Positions 9,009 to 35,708 of a DNA stretch of 38,374 bases are shown piece after piece (position 1 is the stretch's first letter; every line of letters starts with the position of its first letter). The notes beneath the pieces were generated by a model. That model ran no database searches and was not told where the DNA came from. It was given only the letters and a program-made list of their open reading frames with translations. The stretch is from Paludibacteraceae bacterium. Its GTDB lineage: Bacteria; Bacteroidota; Bacteroidia; Bacteroidales; Paludibacteraceae. The position numbers and the translations under genes are program-made. The stretch covers positions 1 to 38,374 of the forward strand of contig JAFNUD010000031.1 of the NCBI GenBank assembly GCA_017384225.1, written 5' to 3'.

Positions 9009-10586
9009 TTAAGCCTTTAACCTCTTACCTAAAGCACGCACTTGTTGGTTAATCTCTGGAGAGAGATTTTTGAACCATGCAATAGCGCAAGCACCGCCTA
9101 TAAGTACAGCTGTGCGGATGATACTACTAATCCAAATATTATTGATTGGCAAGTACTTGAGCCAAAGCGTGTTCGTGCTGAGTATCAACAATAGAAGAAA
9201 GAGAATCTTCGTGTGTTGACGGGTGAATGTAGGCGCTTGTACAGTCAAACGCACCGTTATTATAATGAGTATAAAGTATAAAGCGTAAGAGAGTAGGTTG
9301 CTCACTGCTGCACCATTCATTCCGAGTATAGGAATAAGAGTGTTGTTGAGCAAAATAGAGGATGCAGTCAAGATAAACGAAAACAACAATGAGAAAGCAT
9401 AAAAACGCGAATAGTTAAGGGTATTCAAGGTAAATGAGCCAGTGGCTATAATCAATTGACTCACGCCTAACATGAGTACCACCGAACGCGCTGCGGCATA
9501 GGTAACACCATTAGGTAAAATGTGGAAAATCAAGTCGATATTGAGCCAAATGGTACACAAGATTATACCGCCAATGAGCAACAGATTGCTACTGACTTGT
9601 TGCATGAGGTGGGTAATTTCGGTTTTGTTGTTGTTCTTGATGGCATTTGCCAATTGGGGCGCAGCAATAGCTGTCACCGAACGATAAGGAATACTAACCA
9701 TCACTGCAATATACGTGGCAATGGCAAAGATACCTGTATAATTCAATCCCATCTCTGCGGTAATGAAGAAAGAGGATAGGGTAGGAGCGAGTACCGAAGT
9801 GACTGCCGAAACGAGTAAGAAACCCGTGTAGAGAGCATATTGTTTGACTAGTTGAGGGTTGTTACGTATGAACTGCCAATCAGGACGCAACGATACTTCC
9901 CCTAGCGAGAAGAGATATATGATATTGCACAGCATTGCCACGGCATACACCGCACACAAAGCAATCACAAAACCATCGATATCCACCACGCGGAAGGAAT
10001 AGAGCAGATAGGTAGCCAATAGTCCAATGCGTGTGATAAGTTCGCGCACAGCACGCGGAATGACGATATGCAACCGCACATTGGCATTGGTCTCAAAAAT
10101 TGTTTGATAGAGCATGAAGAACGCCATTGGAAGCACCATGTAGTAGTATTCTACAAAAAGTGGTGACTTCTCGCCAAACCATTGGCTTATAGGTGCGTAG
10201 CAGGCGCAATAGATCGCAGTGAAAAGAGCGAAACCAACGAGTGGGATGAGTATTGTCCAGAAGAAGAATCCGTGCTCAGATGCACCGTTTGTACTGTTCA
10301 GATGTTCAGACGCGCTATGCGCTTGTTCAGAAGTAACTCTTGAACTCTTAACCTCCTGAACTCCTGAACTCTTAAAGTGCGGATAAAATCGAATAATGGA
10401 GGACGAAGTACCCAGTTGTGCTAGTCCGATAAAGAGTGTGGCAGCATCTACCAATACGCGTGCTAAACCAATCTCCTCAGCGGTGAGGAAACGAGTAAGC
10501 ACGAAGAAAGTAGTAACAAAGCCCACCGCCACCCCTAAATAGGTGACGATGGTACCCTGAATACTTTGTTTGGCAATGATGCCCAT
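9009..10586 (-). CDS. Polysaccharide flippase (Wzx/MurJ-like MOP superfamily) with in-frame insert
   Basis: This is a 525-residue polytopic protein with about 12-14 hydrophobic helices and the N-terminal pattern of MOP-superfamily lipid-linked oligosaccharide transporters (GTIVTYLGVAVGFVTTFFVL, LTAEEIGLARVLVDA, QLGTSSSIIRFYP). Such proteins flip lipid-linked saccharides across the inner membrane. Residues about 73-105 are an unusual hydrophilic insert (SGVQEVKSSRVTSEQAHSA and so on) encoded by a GAGTTCAGGAG-type repeat (10272-10370). It interrupts the short loop before the third helix without breaking the frame. The C-terminus (LGKRLKA) also runs into a related GAGGTTAAAGG repeat. The ATG is 3 bp past the FKBP gene stop. 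Confidence 0.88.
   Translation of the reverse strand: MGIIAKQSIQGTIVTYLGVAVGFVTTFFVLTRFLTAEEIGLARVLVDAATLFIGLAQLGTSSSIIRFYPHFKSSGVQEVKSSRVTSEQAHSASEHLNSTNGASEHGFFFWTILIPLVGFALFTAIYCACYAPISQWFGEKSPLFVEYYYMVLPMAFFMLYQTIFETNANVRLHIVIPRAVRELITRIGLLATYLLYSFRVVDIDGFVIALCAVYAVAMLCNIIYLFSLGEVSLRPDWQFIRNNPQLVKQYALYTGFLLVSAVTSVLAPTLSSFFITAEMGLNYTGIFAIATYIAVMVSIPYRSVTAIAAPQLANAIKNNNKTEITHLMQQVSSNLLLIGGIILCTIWLNIDLIFHILPNGVTYAAARSVVLMLGVSQLIIATGSFTLNTLNYSRFYAFSLLFSFILTASSILLNNTLIPILGMNGAAVSNLLSYALYFILIIITVRLTVQAPTFTRQHTKILFLLLLILSTNTLWLKYLPINNIWISSIIRTAVLIGGACAIAWFKNLSPEINQQVRALGKRLKA
10272..10370 (-). repeat. GVQE-type short repeat inserted in frame in the flippase
   Basis: Read on the minus strand this contains GAGTTCAGGAGTTCAGGAG, then ACTTCTGAACA, then GCGTCTGAAC. 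The same succession of motifs occurs in the insert inside ispG (23231-23323), and part of it in the rnfB tail. It is translated as Ser-Gly-Val-Gln-Glu followed by a Ser/Glu/His-rich stretch unlike the rest of the membrane protein. Confidence 0.65.
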
Positions 10587-20635: not shown

Positions 20636-22585
20636 TTATTCGTTCTTTTCCAACCTGAGAATATCTTTTACCGAGCGTTTGATGCGCGTAATCATAGACC
20701 AAGTCTTGCTGGCAGGTGGGATCTCCATAAGCAGGGTATCCATGTCTGGACCGCCTGTTAACTGTTCTGGATAAACGACCATCGAATTATAACGGGTAAA
20801 ATGCTCCATCAACATGGTAGGAATATCTTCAAATAATGGGTGATAGCTGGCTGTGGACTTACGAGATGATAGTAGAATGAGCATATCGTTTTCCATAATG
20901 GTCTGTGATAAAATGCCTATCTCTTCCCAACCCTCCATGTTTCTGAACGAAGCGCGCAAGTATTTTCCTGGACGGCGGCACATGGCTTGCAAGGCGACTT
21001 GTGTATCGGGGTGCGCATAGAACACTACTTTCGCACCCAATTCGCCTGCCAAACGGCGTACAAGACCAAAGCAAGTGATAAAGTCGCGCTCTTTTTCTGC
21101 ATAGCGTGGTACGGCTACTACAAGGCGGCTAATCGTATTGATAGGTTGTGCTTCGTGATACACAATCACCGATTTACTGGTGTGCTCTACCATATTGGAT
21201 ACATCTTGCCAGTCTGCAGATTGCTTAATCTCAATATTATCTAATGATGCTAATTCTGCGATCTCCTTGAGTGCCTCTCTCCGTTCTCCTATTGCTTTAG
21301 AAAATTCCCCTCCTTTTAATGGGGAGTTGAGGGTAGGTTTCTCCTCGTTTATCGATGTTAGTAGCCAGTAGTCATCTTCGTGATCAGCTTCCAATTTTGC
21401 ACTTTCCTGCAATGCAATTTCCTTGGCAGCGTGCTCTGAGATAAAACTGGCGGTAGTGCAGAGCAATAGAATCATCAACACGGAAGCATTGAGCACTTCT
21501 GCTGATAGTATGCCCATTTGATAAGCAATGGTTGCGATAGCCAATGTACCAGCAGCAGTGGCGTGAGATAGACCAAATACCAATTGTCGCTCATGTTTGG
21601 AGAAATGGAATACTGCCTGTGCGATCCAAGCGGAAATACTCTTGCCAATAAGCTTTGTCGTAATCATCGCCACGGCTATCAACAGCGTAGCCCAACCACT
21701 CCAGAAGGCATGAATATCAATCATTATTCCTACGCTTATCAAGAATAATGGAACAAAAATACTATTACCTACAAAAGTGATTCTATTCATGAGTGGCGAT
21801 CGGTTGGGCAATAAACGATTAAGTGAAACACCACAAACGAATGCACCCAATATACCTTCTAAACCTGCAAAATCAGCTAATAATGCGCTACCTACCATCA
21901 TTAGCATGATCACCATAAACTCTGAGATTGGATCGCGGTAGCGCTTGAAAAGCATACGCACAAAACGGGGGAAGAGCCATAATACGCTTACCAGAAATAT
22001 AGTCAATTTACCAATTGCCCATAGACAATCACTCATTGCTAACGTTTTGTCATCTATGGCCAAATGTTCCTCGCCGATGGTAGCCTCTGCTATAGCTAAT
22101 ACTATGAGGGATAGTGTGATTGCCCACAATGTTCCTCCAACGGTAATATTGACCGCTACATTCTTTTGTACTCCATAACGACTTACGATAGGATAGGTCA
22201 TAAGGGTGTGACTACCATACATTGCTCCCAATAGCAAACTGGATAGCCAACCGAAGCCTAATAAGTAGCGACTAGTGATAATGCCCAAACCGAATGGAAT
22301 AACAAAAGTGCACAAACCGAAGAAAAGCGAGCGGTATTTGTATTGCTTAAAATCGTTGATGTCTATTTCGCTTCCCGATTGAAACATGATGTATAACATG
22401 CCTAACGAACCGAGTAGTTTGATAGTTGAATTCTCGCCTACGATGTTGAGCACCGATGGACCGATAGCGATACCTGCCAAGATAAATCCCACAATACTGG
22501 GCACATGTATCTTGCGGCATACAAGTGGTACAAACCATATGATGCCAATTACAAGGGTGAGTATCAATAGGGGAGATAAAGTCAT
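20636..22585 (-). CDS. CPA2-family cation/proton antiporter with C-terminal Usp-like region
   Basis: This is a 649-residue protein read from ATG 22585 (MTLSPLLILTLVIGIIWFVP), since the promoter at 22645-22676 excludes the longer frame. About 12-13 membrane helices fill residues 1-385, with family blocks VPSIVGFILAGIAIGPSVL, LGMLYIMFQSGSEID and LEGILGAFVCGVSLNRLL, the KefB/Na-H exchanger pattern. The cytoplasmic part (about 400-649) resembles a universal-stress-like regulatory domain (RLVVAVPRYAEKERDFITCF). At residues about 418-432 there is NSPLKGGEF, encoded by a CTCCCC/GGGGA short repeat. It exchanges Na+ or K+ for H+; the ion is not deducible. Confidence 0.9.
   Translation of the reverse strand: MTLSPLLILTLVIGIIWFVPLVCRKIHVPSIVGFILAGIAIGPSVLNIVGENSTIKLLGSLGMLYIMFQSGSEIDINDFKQYKYRSLFFGLCTFVIPFGLGIITSRYLLGFGWLSSLLLGAMYGSHTLMTYPIVSRYGVQKNVAVNITVGGTLWAITLSLIVLAIAEATIGEEHLAIDDKTLAMSDCLWAIGKLTIFLVSVLWLFPRFVRMLFKRYRDPISEFMVIMLMMVGSALLADFAGLEGILGAFVCGVSLNRLLPNRSPLMNRITFVGNSIFVPLFLISVGIMIDIHAFWSGWATLLIAVAMITTKLIGKSISAWIAQAVFHFSKHERQLVFGLSHATAAGTLAIATIAYQMGILSAEVLNASVLMILLLCTTASFISEHAAKEIALQESAKLEADHEDDYWLLTSINEEKPTLNSPLKGGEFSKAIGERREALKEIAELASLDNIEIKQSADWQDVSNMVEHTSKSVIVYHEAQPINTISRLVVAVPRYAEKERDFITCFGLVRRLAGELGAKVVFYAHPDTQVALQAMCRRPGKYLRASFRNMEGWEEIGILSQTIMENDMLILLSSRKSTASYHPLFEDIPTMLMEHFTRYNSMVVYPEQLTGGPDMDTLLMEIPPASKTWSMITRIKRSVKDILRLEKNE
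21300..21328 (-). repeat. CTCCCC...GGGGA short repeat inside the antiporter
   Basis: Plus-strand CCCTCC-TTTTAAT-GGGGAG is an imperfect C-run/G-run hairpin, translated on the minus strand as part of NSPLKGGEF. Similar C-run/G-run elements occur in the ABC ATPase gene (24667-24700) and in the spacer at 26511-26528. It falls in the linker between the membrane and cytoplasmic domains, where an insert would be tolerated. Confidence 0.45.
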
Positions 22586-23002: not shown

Positions 23003-24454
23003 ATGGACATACAACTCACATACAATCGTCGTCATACTACGATGACTCAAGTAGGAAACCTATCCATTGGTAGCGAATATCCTATTCGCATTCAAACCAT
23101 GGCGAATACCTCCACCAACGACATCGAGGGGAGTGTAGCACAAGCCGAGCGTTGCTTTGCGGCTGGGTCAGAACTTTTGCGCTATACTACGCAAGGTTTG
23201 CGCGAAGTGGAATCGCTTGCGCAGATTCATAAAAGGGTTCAGGAGTTTAGGGGGGTAGGAGTTCAGGAGCTGCTTCTGAATAGTAGTTCTGCTGCGTCTG
23301 AACCTCAAAATTGCCTCTCCCGCCCTCTTGTGGCTGATGTGCATTTCCAATCCGATGTGGCAGACGCTGCAGCAAAGGTGGTGGAGAAAGTGCGTATCAA
23401 TCCTGGTAACTATATTGATCCTGCGCGCAAGTTCAAGCAGATTGAATATACCGATGAAGAATATCAGATGGAGTTGGAGCGTTTGCGCACACGATTTATT
23501 CAACTATTGGATATCTGCAAAGAGCACAAAACGGCTTTGCGTATTGGTGTGAATCACGGCAGTCTGAGCGATAGAATTATGTCGCGCTATGGCGATACAC
23601 CAGAGGGCATGGTAGAGAGTTGTATGGAGTTTTTGCGAGTAGCAGTTGCAGAAGATTTCAAGGATATAGTTCTCTCTATCAAGGCCAGCAATACGCGCGT
23701 GATGGTGACTACAGTTCGCCTGTTAGTATGGCAAATGGCAGAGGAGAATATGGCGTTTCCGTTGCATTTGGGTGTAACAGAGGCAGGCGAGGGTGAAGAT
23801 GGTCGTGTGAAATCGGCTGTGGGTATAGGTGCACTGCTCGCAGATGGTATAGGCGATACGATTCGTGTGAGTCTGAGTGAAGCACCTGAAAAGGAATTGC
23901 CTGTAGCTAAGGCATTGGTGGACTATTTTGCTGATGAACGGAGTATTCGCTACGCGGCTACTACCGAAGTAAAGATAGAGGATAAGACTGTCTATTTCTC
24001 AAATGCGGACACCAATTGGCAGCAGTTTCAATTGCATGCTGCTGCGGAATGTGGTCGTTTGTTGTGGGATTATAATTGTACGGAATTAGTGCTTCGTAAT
24101 GACCATTTCTCAGCTGACGATTTGATTCGCCTGAGCAAAGATATTCTGCAGGCTGCGCGCGTGCGTATGTATAAAACGGAGTATATCTCATGTCCAGGGT
24201 GTGGTCGTACTTTGTTTGACTTGGAACAGACTGTTGCCGAGGTGAAGGCCGCCACATCGCACTTGCAAGGATTGAAGATAGGCATTATGGGCTGTATTGT
24301 GAATGGTCCTGGTGAGATGGCAGATGCTGATTATGGTTATGTGGGTGCGGGTCGAGGCAAGGTGAGCTTGTATAAAGGCAAAGAGTGTGTGCTTAAGAAT
24401 ATCCCTCAAGAAGAGGCGGTAACTCGGTTGTTGGCATTGATAGAGCAGAAGTGA
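23003..24454 (+). CDS. ispG: 4-hydroxy-3-methylbut-2-enyl diphosphate synthase (IspG/GcpE) with in-frame insert
   Basis: This is a 483-residue protein from ATG 23003 (an in-frame TTG at 22982 overlaps the -7 box and is rejected). It catalyses the penultimate step of the MEP isoprenoid pathway with a [4Fe-4S] cluster. The TIM barrel is marked by SIGSEYPIRIQTMANTSTND, LVADVHFQ, VRINPGN, LRIGVNHGSL and HLGVTEAGEGEDG. The C-terminal cluster domain has CPGCGRTLFDL and GIMGCIVNGPGEMADADYGY. Residues about 77-107 are a foreign-looking insert (VQEFRGVGVQELLLNSSSA) where other IspG proteins pass directly to PLVADVHF. The region between barrel and cluster domain is about 100 residues, shorter than the extra domain in many Bacteroidetes and plant enzymes. 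Confidence 0.96.
   Translation: MDIQLTYNRRHTTMTQVGNLSIGSEYPIRIQTMANTSTNDIEGSVAQAERCFAAGSELLRYTTQGLREVESLAQIHKRVQEFRGVGVQELLLNSSSAASEPQNCLSRPLVADVHFQSDVADAAAKVVEKVRINPGNYIDPARKFKQIEYTDEEYQMELERLRTRFIQLLDICKEHKTALRIGVNHGSLSDRIMSRYGDTPEGMVESCMEFLRVAVAEDFKDIVLSIKASNTRVMVTTVRLLVWQMAEENMAFPLHLGVTEAGEGEDGRVKSAVGIGALLADGIGDTIRVSLSEAPEKELPVAKALVDYFADERSIRYAATTEVKIEDKTVYFSNADTNWQQFQLHAAAECGRLLWDYNCTELVLRNDHFSADDLIRLSKDILQAARVRMYKTEYISCPGCGRTLFDLEQTVAEVKAATSHLQGLKIGIMGCIVNGPGEMADADYGYVGAGRGKVSLYKGKECVLKNIPQEEAVTRLLALIEQK
23231..23323 (+). repeat. GVQE-type short repeat inserted in frame in ispG
   Basis: It contains GGTTCAGGAGTTTAGGGG, then GGAGTTCAGGAG, CTTCTGAATA and GCGTCTGAAC. The motif order matches the flippase insert (10272-10370, minus strand), including the CTTCTGAA and GCGTCTGAAC parts. 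It is translated as Gly-Val-Gln-Glu in the same phase as in the flippase. Confidence 0.7.
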
Positions 24455-24502: not shown

Positions 24503-25207
24503 ATGGCAGTAAAGATTTCCCATTTGAATAAGCATATAGGCAAACAGCATGTGCTTCGTGATATTAGCCTTTCTATCGGTGATGGTGAGGTGGTAGGTTT
24601 GTTGGGTCCTAATGGAGCAGGTAAATCTACTTTGATGAAGATTATGGTGGGTGTTTGGGATGCAGATCCTTCCCAATCTTCTCTACAAGGGGAGGAGAGT
24701 GTACTGAAAGTGCCTTCTACCATTGGTTACTTACCCGAACTTAATCCGCTATATGATGAGATGTACGTGAGGGAGTATCTTCGTTTTTTTGTCGGGCTTC
24801 GATGCAATAGCCAATCGTCAATAGCCAATCATCAACTAGTGGAATCTCTCATTGTTCGAGTGGGATTGACAGCAGAGGCTAACAAGCGGGTAGGGCAGTT
24901 GAGTAAGGGGTATAAGCAGCGTGTAGGGTTGGCGCAAGCGATGATAGGTGATCCTGAACTATTGATTTTAGACGAGCCAACAACGGGATTGGATCCTAAT
25001 CAGTTGGAGGATATACGTGCCCTGATTCGCGAGGTGGGCAAAAATAAAATGGTGATTCTCTCTACTCATATCATGCAGGAGGTGAAGCAGATGTGTAGTC
25101 GTGTGGTGATTATTGATCATGGAGAAATAAAAGTGGATAAACCGATTACAGAGATAGAAGACTTAGAGCAAACCTTCCGTGAAGCGACGGTAGAGCATAA
25201 GGAGTAA
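24503..25207 (+). CDS. ABC transporter ATP-binding protein, GldA-like
   Basis: This is a 234-residue ATPase. Walker A GPNGAGKST is at residues 35-43, the signature LSKGYKQR at 133-140, Walker B LLILDEPT at 153-160 and the H-loop STHIMQE near 190. The phrase IGYLPELNPLYDEMYVREYL is characteristic of the GldA-type subgroup of ABC-2 exporters in Bacteroidetes. No permease gene is adjacent, so the partner must lie elsewhere. Two segments look rebuilt from short repeats: residues 54-70 (DPSQSSLQGEESV) and 101-112 (CNSQSSIANHQL, from a 14-bp tandem repeat at 24805-24832). Both are in surface loops between conserved motifs. The start is ATG 24503; the TTG at 24491 lies in the promoter. Confidence 0.9.
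   Translation: MAVKISHLNKHIGKQHVLRDISLSIGDGEVVGLLGPNGAGKSTLMKIMVGVWDADPSQSSLQGEESVLKVPSTIGYLPELNPLYDEMYVREYLRFFVGLRCNSQSSIANHQLVESLIVRVGLTAEANKRVGQLSKGYKQRVGLAQAMIGDPELLILDEPTTGLDPNQLEDIRALIREVGKNKMVILSTHIMQEVKQMCSRVVIIDHGEIKVDKPITEIEDLEQTFREATVEHKE
24805..24832 (+). repeat. 14-bp tandem repeat within the ABC ATPase gene
   Basis: CAATAGCCAATCGT (24805-24818) is followed directly by CAATAGCCAATCAT (24819-24832). Because 14 is not a multiple of three, the two copies are read in different phases, yet the reading frame stays open. A C-run/G-run element (CCTTCCCAATC...GGGGAGGAG) lies about 130 bp upstream (24667-24700) in the same gene. Confidence 0.7.
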
Positions 25208-34054: not shown

Positions 34055-34417
34055 ATGATCGTACATGTTGCATCGTTTTTAGAAAGTTTGGGCGGCTCGA
34101 TAGACAAGGAATATTATCTGCGTCCTATCCCTGGCAGACCAGGTTACGCTGCCTATTGTCACAAACCCGAGTATTCGAAGAAGAAACAAAAAGAAATGGC
34201 TGAGCGAGAGGCGGTAAAGAAATTGAGCAGAGTGAGTGCAGAGGCTAGTGCTATATTACGCGATCCCGAGCGTCGCGCTGAGTGGCAAGCAAAATATAGT
34301 GCCGCGCTACGAGAGGCGAGTAAGCATCAACGAATGCCCGATGCAAAGGGAAAACCTTATGTGCCAGGGAGATTGTGCGACTATGTGAGAAGAGAGTTAC
34401 ATAAAGAGGAGTCTTGA
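34055..34417 (+). CDS. Small basic protein of unknown function
   Basis: This is a 120-residue protein with its own good promoter. The N-terminus (MIVHVASFLESLGGSIDKEYYLRPIPG) is followed by a highly charged helical part rich in Lys, Arg, Glu and Ala (SKKKQKEMAEREAVKKLSRV, ILRDPERRAEWQAKYSAAL) and a short C-terminal motif PGRLCDYVRREL. No signal or membrane segment. The pattern is like small Bacteroidetes hypothetical proteins with nucleic-acid-binding composition, but I recognise no defined family. It stands alone: no gene lies between it and rnfB, 316 bp away. Confidence 0.65.
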   Translation: MIVHVASFLESLGGSIDKEYYLRPIPGRPGYAAYCHKPEYSKKKQKEMAEREAVKKLSRVSAEASAILRDPERRAEWQAKYSAALREASKHQRMPDAKGKPYVPGRLCDYVRRELHKEES

Positions 34418-34491
34418 GTCCTGCGGATGGCACGGATGAACACTATGAAGGATATAGAAGGCGCATAGCAGATAGGGCGATGCTTTAATGA

Positions 34492-34562
34492 GGTTCCAAT
34501 CAGGTTCCAATCAGATTCCAATGAGATACCAATGAAGATAGGTGGCGATTAGGTGGCGATAA
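34492..34562 (+). repeat. 11-bp tandem repeat array in two families
   Basis: GGTTCCAATCA occurs twice (34492-34513), then GATTCCAATGA (34514-34524) and GATACCAATGA (34525-34535), a 5-bp spacer, then GGTGGCGATTA (34541-34551) and GGTGGCGATAA (34552-34562). The 11-bp period is close to one DNA turn, so any bound protein would sit on one face of the helix. Confidence 0.85.
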
Positions 34563-34650
34563 AGGGGTGTGAATTAAGAATTAAGAAAATTATGAATTAT
34601 GAACGAACGAGATAGATATCTATCTTTTTATGAAAATAATTATTGCTTTG

Positions 34651-34733: not shown

Positions 34734-35708
34734 ATGAATTTAATTGTAATCTCTTTGCTTGTTTTGGGCGTGACGGGATTAGTAGCAGCGGTGCTACTCT
34801 ACCTGGTTGCCCAAAAGTTCAAGGTAGAAGAAGATCCACGCATCGATGAGGTGCAAGAGGCATTGCCTGGCGCTAACTGCGGTGGTTGCGGTTTTGCTGG
34901 CTGTCGTGCGTTTGCCGAAGGCTGCGTCAAAGCAGACTCACTTGATGGACTTCTCTGCCCTGTAGGCGGTGCACCTACGATGAAGAAAGTAGGTGAGATT
35001 CTGGGAATGGCGGTCGGAAACATCGACCCCAAAGTAGCAGTAGTTCGCTGCAACGGTACGTGTGAAGCACGACCAAAAACAAGCATTTATGACGGTGCTA
35101 AGAGTTGCCAAATCCTGCATAACTGCTATGTGGGTGAGTCGGCTTGTCCGTTTGGCTGTTTGGGTTGTGGCGACTGTGTAGCAGCCTGCGAGTTTGACGC
35201 TATCCACATGAACCCTGAGACAGGTTTGCCAGAGGTGGATGACGAGAAGTGTACCAGCTGCGGCAAGTGCGTTAGTGCATGTCCACGCAACATCATTGAG
35301 CTACGCAAGAAAGGTCCTAAGAGCCGTCGCATGGTAGTGATGTGCGTGAACAAAGACAAAGGTGCTGTAGCACGTAAGGCATGTACGAATGCTTGTATCG
35401 GTTGTAGCAAGTGCCAAAAAGTGTGCGAGTTTGATGCAATCACCATCGAGAACAACTTGGCATACATCGACTACAACAAGTGCCGTCTGTGCCGTAAGTG
35501 CGAGGACGCATGCCCAACAGGTGCCATCCACGCAGTGAACTTCCCACCACGAAAGGCGAAGCCAGAGGCGCCAGCAGTTCAGAAGGTTCAGGCAGCACCA
35601 AAGGTGCCTGTTCAGGAGGGTTCTGGAGTTCAAGAGAATGCTGAGGTTAAAGGTGAAAGGTTAGAGGTTAAAGGCGTAGAAACTAAACAAGAGGAGGCAA
35701 AGGCATGA
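34734..35708 (+). CDS. rnfB: RNF complex subunit B (ferredoxin-type)
   Basis: This is a 324-residue protein. An N-terminal membrane helix (residues 3-25) is followed by the four-cysteine domain ANCGGCGFAGCRAFAEGC (about 48-65), then four ferredoxin CxxCxxCxxxC motifs (CLGCGDCVAAC, CTSCGKCVSAC, CIGCSKCQKVC, CRLCRKCEDAC), so several [4Fe-4S] clusters. RnfB takes electrons from reduced ferredoxin and passes them into the membrane complex that reduces NAD+ while pumping Na+ or H+. The last 43 residues (from about 282) are a low-complexity Val-Gln-Glu-rich tail that includes SGVQE, coded by the same type of repeat found in ispG and a flippase. Its TGA overlaps the rnfC ATG. Confidence 0.96.
   Translation: MNLIVISLLVLGVTGLVAAVLLYLVAQKFKVEEDPRIDEVQEALPGANCGGCGFAGCRAFAEGCVKADSLDGLLCPVGGAPTMKKVGEILGMAVGNIDPKVAVVRCNGTCEARPKTSIYDGAKSCQILHNCYVGESACPFGCLGCGDCVAACEFDAIHMNPETGLPEVDDEKCTSCGKCVSACPRNIIELRKKGPKSRRMVVMCVNKDKGAVARKACTNACIGCSKCQKVCEFDAITIENNLAYIDYNKCRLCRKCEDACPTGAIHAVNFPPRKAKPEAPAVQKVQAAPKVPVQEGSGVQENAEVKGERLEVKGVETKQEEAKA
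35577..35690 (+). repeat. GVQE-type repeat forming the rnfB C-terminal tail
   Basis: It contains GTTCAGAAGGTTCAGG, then GTTCAGGAGGGTTCTGGAG and TTCAAGAG, followed by GGTTAAAGG-type motifs (GGTTAGAGGTTAAAGG). Related to the ispG and flippase inserts and to the GAGGTTAAAGG at the truA-flippase junction (9003-9030). It codes for VQ/KV/EG-rich residues in the same phase (GVQE). Confidence 0.55.

Follow-up and report, generated by a model that had tools for sequence, protein, structure and literature searches.

The window, the whole stretch of 38,374 nucleotides analyzed here, corresponds to contig C129 in the 2.17-Mb genome G000 (140 contigs, 88% complete) from a clade of gut bacteria, probably Paludibacteraceae. 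An earlier note on this DNA had placed a repeat insert, in frame, in each of two genes, ispG and a gene for a flippase-like protein, and both inserts are present in the sequence as it described them. These and the other repeat-bearing segments of the window are listed in Table 1.

Table 1. Repeat-bearing genes and segments in the window
Feature	Position	Strand	Description
TruA-like (tRNA pseudouridine synthase) loop	8758-8796	-	CAATTGCCAAT words; window allele p=0.022
Flippase-like gene	9009-10586	-	Membrane protein with a 33-codon repeat insert
Flippase insert, in-frame composite	10272-10370 (residues 73-105)	-	GAGTTCAG words, CTTCTGAAC, AAGCGCATAGCGC hairpin, CTGAAC words
Second flippase-like gene, loop	13886-13927	-	Window allele not periodic (p=0.234)
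ispG gene	23003-24454	+	Repeat segment of about 26-30 codons between VESLAQIH and PLVADVHF
ispG in-frame repeat segment	23231-23323; core 23234-23311 (IspG residues 78-103)	+	Degenerate member of the GTTCAGGA palindromic family
ispG segment, left arm	23237-23269	+	GTTCAGGAG at 23237-23245 and 23261-23269
ispG segment, right arm	23273-23303	+	CTTCTGAA(T) at 23273-23281, GTAGTTCTGCTGC stretch, GCGTCTGAAC at 23294-23303
ABC-type ATPase gene downstream of ispG, repeat-built loop	24800-24847; array 24805-24835	+	Unit CAATAGCCAATCAT
RnfB C-terminal tail	35577-35636	+	Weak third family member (GTTCAG words); profile match 35574-35633, E=0.0055
RnfB heptamer array	35644-35674	+	AGGTTAA array directly behind the GTTCAG words; reads within EVKGERLEVKG

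The claim that IspG proteins of other organisms lack these residues is borne out by two solved structures, neither of which has a counterpart of the segment. Query residues 78 to 107 align with residues 82 to 85 of 3noy and residues 79 to 106 with residues 80 to 81 of 4mwa, i.e., the solved proteins have at most two residues where the window IspG runs from 78-79 to 106-107. The same residues in close relatives would have marked the segment as ordinary protein variation; none of the eight species compared has them at this site. In the predicted model of the flippase-like protein (mean pLDDT of 73.7), residues 75 to 101, located between two helices, form the only internal segment with values below 50, and the insert position is, according to this model, a disordered loop. 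The name “flippase” for this protein is weakly supported: it had no match in NCBIfam, and its score against the Pfam family Polysacc_synt, 27.3 bits, is just under the cut-off of 28.2.

The motif order GTTCAGGAG, CTTCTGAA, GCGTCTGAAC (left, middle, and right, respectively) is common to both inserts, and both genes read the key motif as Gly-Val-Gln-Glu, as originally reported. A profile of the composite family, built from seven copies outside the window (three intergenic ones and a GlgB-like one from G000, the latter label coming from matches under the NCBIfam cut-offs, and three genic ones from the 90% complete comparison genome G057), matched the ispG copy (23231-23313) with E=1.7e-12 and the flippase copy with E=2.9e-26; 20 windows shuffled in two-base blocks gave no matches. 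The repeat unit of this family, GAGTTCAG, is 8 bp long. In its composite form, [GGAGTTCA]n and CTTCTGAA are followed, in this order, by a short GC hairpin (AAGCGC...GCGC or AGCAGC...GCTGC) and CTGAAC words. With [GGAGTTCA]n at one end and the CTGAAC words at the other, the ends can pair, so the composite is a palindrome with a nested hairpin, and it recurs in two species, G000 and G057. Folding of six composite copies, from a total of nine, and comparison with dinucleotide shuffles gave z values from -1.9 to -3.6, the value for the flippase composite being -2.53. For positions 23225-23325 around the ispG copy, z was -2.07, with an equally good fold in 4 of 200 shuffles, and the rnfB stretch had no fold signal (z=-0.37). 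With at most one mismatch, GTTCAGGAG occurs 15 times in the window (6.05 expected) and CTTCTGAAC 18 times (7.56 expected), counts that were reached in 0 of 100 shuffles in either case. With up to two mismatches, GCGTCTGAAC is not enriched in the window (22 occurrences versus 22.85 expected), and the weight of this motif rests only on its two exact copies.

The earlier note also considered these segments a possible class of mini-elements with a shared phase, a view that the data do not support. About a dozen different words share such loops (see below), and the constant reading phase follows from stop codons: in five of the six in-gene composite copies (in the flippase-like gene, the GlgB-like gene, and three G057 genes, short flanks included), only a single frame of six is open. 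In the ispG copy, two frames are open, the second one on the other strand. Selection for the peptide is thus unnecessary as the cause of the common phase. An uptake sequence of the Neisseria kind, suggested by GCGTCTGAA, was rejected as well, because the motif with two mismatches occurs at chance level.

Repeat words also occur at several other loops, either in the window or at the corresponding loop in sister species. In the ABC-type ATPase, the periodicity test described below gave p=0.141 for the window allele, and G071 has AGGCGATA-like words at this loop (p=0.002). The TruA-like loop contains GCCAATT/GCCAATC, AGGCGA, or AATTCTTAATTC words in sister species. The loop in the second flippase-like gene carries arrays of the GTTCAG family in G057 and G122, GACTCCC arrays in G120 and G039, and GGTTCTAAA in G121. 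The ispG allele itself is not a tandem array by this ungapped test (p=0.51 and 0.53). Outside these loci, three short tandem arrays (AATGAGATTCC, TAGGTGGCGAT, and TGAATTA) are found at 34487-34603, between the open reading frame that ends at 34417 and rnfB. A further segment, at 21263-21334 on the minus strand, lies in a gene assigned by Pfam to the sodium/hydrogen exchanger type; it reads TLNSPLKGGEFSKAIGERREALKE, and its DNA holds the palindromic word CTCCCCATTAAAAGGAGGGG, which resembles the CCCCTCCC...GGGAAGGG palindromic word in the valyl-tRNA synthetase (ValRS) gene of G122.

The family is dispersed through the genome. Searches of G000 with the 19-mer GAGTTCAGGAGTTCAGGAG (up to two mismatches) revealed 22 matches in 12 places and none for the reversed word, which served as the control for word counts in genomes. 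In agreement with the proposal of a dispersed repeat inside conserved genes, 8 of the 12 places are in genes, namely, those for the flippase-like protein, a CinA-type protein, a DUF5715 protein, CysRS, the GlgB-like protein, RsgA, IleRS, and ValRS. The remaining four places are outside genes, as are the longest copies. Because of its degeneracy, the ispG copy is not one of the 22 matches, and the arrays in the CinA-type, RsgA, IleRS, and ValRS genes comprise only a few units and lack the right arm. Shorter clusters were found in RnfB, a PepO-like peptidase, a second place in CysRS, and two further places in ValRS of G000 and, in G057, in a RecQ-like helicase, a DnaX-like protein, two VapE-like proteins, and an alpha/beta hydrolase, among others. 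In both VapE-like proteins (L166 and L167), the composite element comes soon after a VASQVR motif. No GTTCAG-pair clusters were detected in 20 stretches of G000 sampled across contig numbers (149,089 bases, of which 19,042 were N), and allowing one mismatch gave 0 clusters for the real word versus 6 for the reversed control; the GTTCAG family is therefore sparse, patchy, and clustered notably on contig C113. A 17.7-kb stretch of that contig (L172, G000:C113:36000-53708) contains 7 GTTCAG clusters with at least three exact cores, the control giving 0.

Among relatives, the 19-mer with one mismatch was present in 5 of the 73 genomes of a genus sample (G000 included) and in none of 47 genomes from other families of the order; with two mismatches, it was present in 6 of 12 close relatives, again including G000. 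The AATTCAAAATTC heptamer, with at most one mismatch over 19 bases, has 35 matches in G000 and 108 in G122 (control, 0) and is present in 8 of 11 genomes. The GGGNATC word has 22 matches in G000, including one array inside IleRS, and is present in 9 of 12 genomes, its control giving 7 matches over the 12 genomes, none of them in G000. A palindrome of 34 to 37 bp, GCACCCC-stem-TCGGGGACCCCG, was found 112 times, with copies in each of 12 genomes (control, 0). Its outer part is constant and its inner stem varies yet stays largely self-complementary, with 150 matching and 28 nonmatching position pairs among 23 distinct stems from 33 copies in the fetched loci.

Different words occupy the same loops in close sister species (the nine closest species, with ValRS proteins 92 to 96% identical to that of G000). 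The flippase site contains five or six different in-frame words among eight species, no two alleles being identical: GTTCAGGA in G000, GTGTAGAAT in G125, AATTCAA in G120, GTGAAAG in G122, AAGAGCCAAGA-like words in G014, G121, and G057, and a GCGAAAGA-like stretch in G039. At this site, a plain, short linker is present in relatives that are more distant. There are four words among ten species at ValRS site 3 and about four at site 1, and similar swaps are seen in the loops of IspG, the TruA-like protein, the second flippase-like protein, and IleRS; the sister-species comparison revealed no repeat-swap block in the gene for riboflavin synthase or in either of the two FKBP genes. By our reading of the alignments, about a dozen short-unit words, mostly of 7 to 10 bp, occupy these loops.

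At ValRS site 2, GAAGTTCAGGAGTTCAGTAGTTCAGAAGTA of G000 stands in place of a native sequence of the same length that is found in G057 and other close species. This swap covers 24 nt, or three units, and corresponds to WEVQEFSSSEV in G000 versus WEVADIAMPET in G057. At the left edge of the site, GAAGTT is present in both G000 and G057, and the other species are off by a base or two. The term “insertion” used in the earlier note thus does not fit every case. In the alignment with the ValRS structure 1gax, site 1 is a gap, and sites 2 and 3 are not clearly so.

ValRS sites 1 and 3 also have identical alleles in species that are not joined in the gene tree, such as G000 and G122, the latter being the sister of G121. 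Such an allele across site 1 or 3 is shared by 7 of 45 species pairs. In four of these pairs, as expected from short-tract recombination, the identical run that spans the site is the longest one in the ValRS gene: 134 nt for G057-G025 (the next longest run is 72 nt), 95 for G057-G125 (next, 53), 89 for G125-G025 (next, 74), and 75 for G000-G122 (next, 53). In the other three, G000-G057 (59 nt), G057-G122 (51 nt), and G125-G039 (38 nt), it is not the longest.

The loops differ from ordinary variable regions in their periodicity. In 27 ortholog clusters from 448 open reading frames of the fetched stretches, with windows of the same genes as the null, 30 of 94 alleles in length-variable blocks were tandemly periodic at p<=0.01 versus 4 of 153 in equal-length divergent blocks; at least one periodic allele was present in 10 of the 18 length-variable blocks, which were compared with 38 equal-length ones. 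Among the 9 loops in 11 genes that we picked ourselves, 41 of 63 alleles were periodic at p<=0.05. In the FKBP neighborhood, the one neighborhood analyzed outside the clade as well, such alleles were nearly restricted to the clade: a similar method, with blocks containing alleles of >60 residues left out, yielded 13 of 24 in the clade, 1 of 96 in other Paludibacteraceae, 3 of 46 in Bacteroides and kin, and 4 of 112 in Prevotella and kin, the control groups being more divergent, which possibly lowers their figures. Tandem repeats as such are not clade specific. Their density per 100 kb was 42 in the genome sample, 29 in the window, and 72 in six clade loci and, outside the clade, 38 in other Paludibacteraceae, 28 in Bacteroides and kin, and 48 in Prevotella and kin. 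The respective numbers of arrays in real and shuffled sequences were 55 and 10, 11 and 1, and 42 and 2 and, outside the clade, 43 and 9, 55 and 11, and 102 and 13. It is the residence of the repeats in protein loops that looks special. Recurrence of loop 12-mers in the genome sample of the same species (281 of 3,825 for variable loops and 94 of 4,377 for equal-length blocks, with random windows in between at 897 of 19,610) is a weak and confounded signal.

The explanation proposed here, in which we have slightly better than even confidence, is that dispersed repeats are copied ectopically, kept in frame in expendable loops, partly exchanged between species, and functionless for the protein. 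The ispG and flippase segments would be copies of a dispersed family with an 8-bp unit, one of about a dozen words of the clade. New copies would arise by ectopic copying of part of an array that is already present into another place. The most likely route is template switching or short-patch conversion, with a few matching bases as the primer, and slippage would then lengthen or shorten the copied arrays. Genic copies could persist only in an expendable loop, and only if the frame stays open and the strand and phase are free of stop codons; the loops of conserved enzymes would fill with repeats as a result. Sister species may swap loop alleles by short-tract homologous recombination, later copies of other words may overwrite earlier ones at the same loop, and the repeats would serve no function for the host protein. 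The dispersal of the repeats, their in-frame residence, the loop position in the cases examined, the different words per site, the near absence from the FKBP neighborhood outside the clade, the single equal-length replacement, and the long identical runs around some shared alleles are seen directly in the data; we infer how the copying works, which way it proceeds, and that it is neutral. The equal-length replacement at ValRS site 2 favors, as one case, copying-over from a short priming match over the action of a transposase, and microhomology priming rests on this one clean replacement. Several observations count against ectopic copying: the three of seven ValRS pairs in which the run over the site is not the longest, the sparseness of the GTTCAG family, the nonperiodic ispG copy, the weak 12-mer recurrence, the nongenic location of 4 of the 12 places and of the longest copies, and ValRS sites 2 and 3, which are without clear gaps relative to 1gax.

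Some features of the repeats would also be expected of nonautonomous mobile elements that depend on an enzyme dedicated to their movement, either REP/REPIN-like sequences moved by a RAYT (Y1) transposase or MITEs mobilized in trans by the transposase of an IS. The composite is palindromic, with a nested hairpin, its six folded copies score better than shuffles, and it is present in two species. Moreover, the abundant GCACCCC-stem-TCGGGGACCCCG palindrome also occurs inside ValRS repeat loops: a nested 36-bp palindrome is located in these loops in G120 and G014 (L251 and L252), and the 61 identical nucleotides shared by the ValRS genes of these two species coincide with this element together with the repeats around it. 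However, Y1_Tnp, the only transposase family searched for, had no match in G000 (88% complete) or G057 (90% complete), for which RAYT/IS200 movement was rejected. It was detected in 3 of 17 genome handles (14 distinct genomes), twice over the cut-off, in G009 and G010, both of which have some copies of the 19-mer. Inspection by eye revealed no target-site duplication or fixed ends in the composite copies, for which there is no clean empty site, and many of the words are plain tandem repeats without a palindrome. Movement by a dedicated enzyme is considered unlikely.

In-place slippage, whereby the loops are of low complexity by nature and the repeat of each species has grown from local sequence, appears less likely still. 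The number of units in the loop arrays does vary, and tolerant loops are where slippage survives. Nevertheless, the same words turn up repeatedly within a genome as well as in those of sister species, the order of the composite parts is common to the ispG, flippase, and intergenic copies, ValRS site 2 was replaced at equal length, and there is little periodicity in the FKBP neighborhood of other Bacteroidales. For the GTTCAG family, slippage is disfavored by the homology of genic and intergenic copies; for single simple words, it could hold.

It is quite improbable that the variation mainly reflects exchange of alleles between species by homologous recombination, with the repeats being old residents. 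The identical ValRS runs of 75 to 134 nt around shared alleles do point to exchange, but exchange only moves alleles and does not create them, the 30 codons flanking site 1 or 3 in word-sharing pairs are 0.74 to 0.96 identical, much like the whole gene, and the eight flippase-site alleles include no identical pair. An adaptive role, with selection diversifying the loops (e.g., for evading a binding protein) or with the repeats being regulatory sites within genes, would agree with their spread across several species and with the regulatory function proposed for heptamer repeats of other organisms (PMC4679880) but is very improbable, as the host enzymes have no common function (IspG, ValRS, IleRS, CysRS, RsgA, TruA-like, RecQ-like, and DnaX-like proteins) and what their genes share is the DNA word.

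Loss of mismatch repair, as judged by MutS1 in seven clade genomes, was rejected as a cause, since MutS1 scored over the cut-off in G000, G014, G025, G039, G057, G061, and G071 (and in 67 of the 73 genomes of the genus sample). The palindrome nuclease SbcD was over the cut-off in 11 of the 73 genomes; it is present in G000 and not, over the cut-off, in six clade mates, G014, G025, G039, G057, G061, and G071, so its loss as a cause of the repeats is neither favored nor excluded.

Ectopic copying into expendable loops can be extended to a bolder, tentative reading, to which we give somewhat less than even confidence: the shared pool of words may act as a standing engine that overwrites expendable loops genome-wide, by copying-over as well as by insertion and with a copying mechanism of its own, at a pace that leaves sister species with different words at many of these loops. 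The findings suggest that, in a group of gut bacteria, the variation of loop length in essential proteins stems mainly from repetitive DNA. Sister species with different words at the same loop provide replicate natural experiments on the origin and tolerance of protein-coding repeats. There is also a warning for the annotation of proteins from metagenome-derived genomes, in which hypervariable loops and repeat-derived peptides need not be functional.

Several known repeat systems resemble the one described here in part. The BrickBuilt MITE of Porphyromonas gingivalis is described as an always intergenic element that carries a 23-nt minisatellite and has a leader and a tail with inverted ends (PMC4596501). 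It likewise represents a tandem repeat within a dispersed element of a Bacteroidales species; in contrast to it, the repeats in G000 also occur in genes, and their units are mostly of 7 to 10 bp. The REP/REPIN sequences are short palindromes in many copies, some of them inside genes (PMC3733652). The repeats analyzed here are similar in both respects, but no Y1 transposase was found in G000 or G057, and the hairpin feet of the composite copies, compared by eye, have GCGTC in some and GCGCTAC or GCGCAGC in others, without an evident constant GTAG/CGTC tag.

Heptamer repeats are another such system. The GGGNATC heptamers of Xanthomonas and Nostoc are reported to be underrepresented in coding regions (PMC4692102), and TAACTGA heptamers have been described from Beggiatoaceae, Cyanobacteria, and five Bacteroidetes, including arrays in Paludibacter propionicigenes, and, in the main genome studied, mostly just upstream of start codons (PMC4679880). 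The distribution of such heptamers is patchy over distant phyla. In G000, there are dispersed arrays of 7-bp words as well, and GGGNATC itself is among them, but the in-frame arrays fill the loops of conserved proteins. Array numbers exceed the control, as in short-unit dispersed repeats elsewhere, and yet the one word examined for location, the 19-mer, is not mainly nongenic (genes hold 8 of its 12 places). Heterocystous cyanobacteria have heptamer arrays with nested small palindromic elements, and the nested palindromes in the arrays described here resemble these.

In-frame repeat loops in Bacteroidales were not described in the open-license literature, among the matches listed. The closest precedent is provided by the Rickettsia palindromic elements (RPE), a likeness that the earlier note had pointed out and that the in-frame dispersed repeats in conserved open reading frames support. 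The RPE are described as elements of 100 to 150 bp that reside in frame in solvent-exposed parts of proteins (PMC3767692 and PMC10969869). Different groups (RPE-4, -6, and -7) are reported at near sites of orthologs, and the authors weighed insertion hotspots against a common origin (PMC3767692). Similarly to RPE and the Wolbachia palindromic elements (WPE), the repeats of G000 are dispersed and palindromic and lie within preexisting open reading frames whose frame is kept. Residence in conserved frames was seen for ispG and for the eight genes with the 19-mer, save the one for the DUF5715 protein, and the predicted disordered loop of the flippase-like protein, together with the alignment gaps at IspG and ValRS site 1, suggests tolerated positions. 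The composite copies, of roughly 100 to 150 bp, are palindromic and homologous to each other, but several of the in-gene arrays comprise a few units only and lack the right arm. Unlike RPE, which are compared here by their description, the building block is mostly a word of 7 to 10 bp, array length varies, several words have no palindrome, the phylum is a different one, sister species have different words at one site, and one replacement is of equal length. Thus, the loop repeats of G000 are a variant of protein-inserted dispersed repeats, their nearest kind being the Rickettsia elements, and their unusual feature is turnover, as closely related species carry different short-unit words at the same loop.
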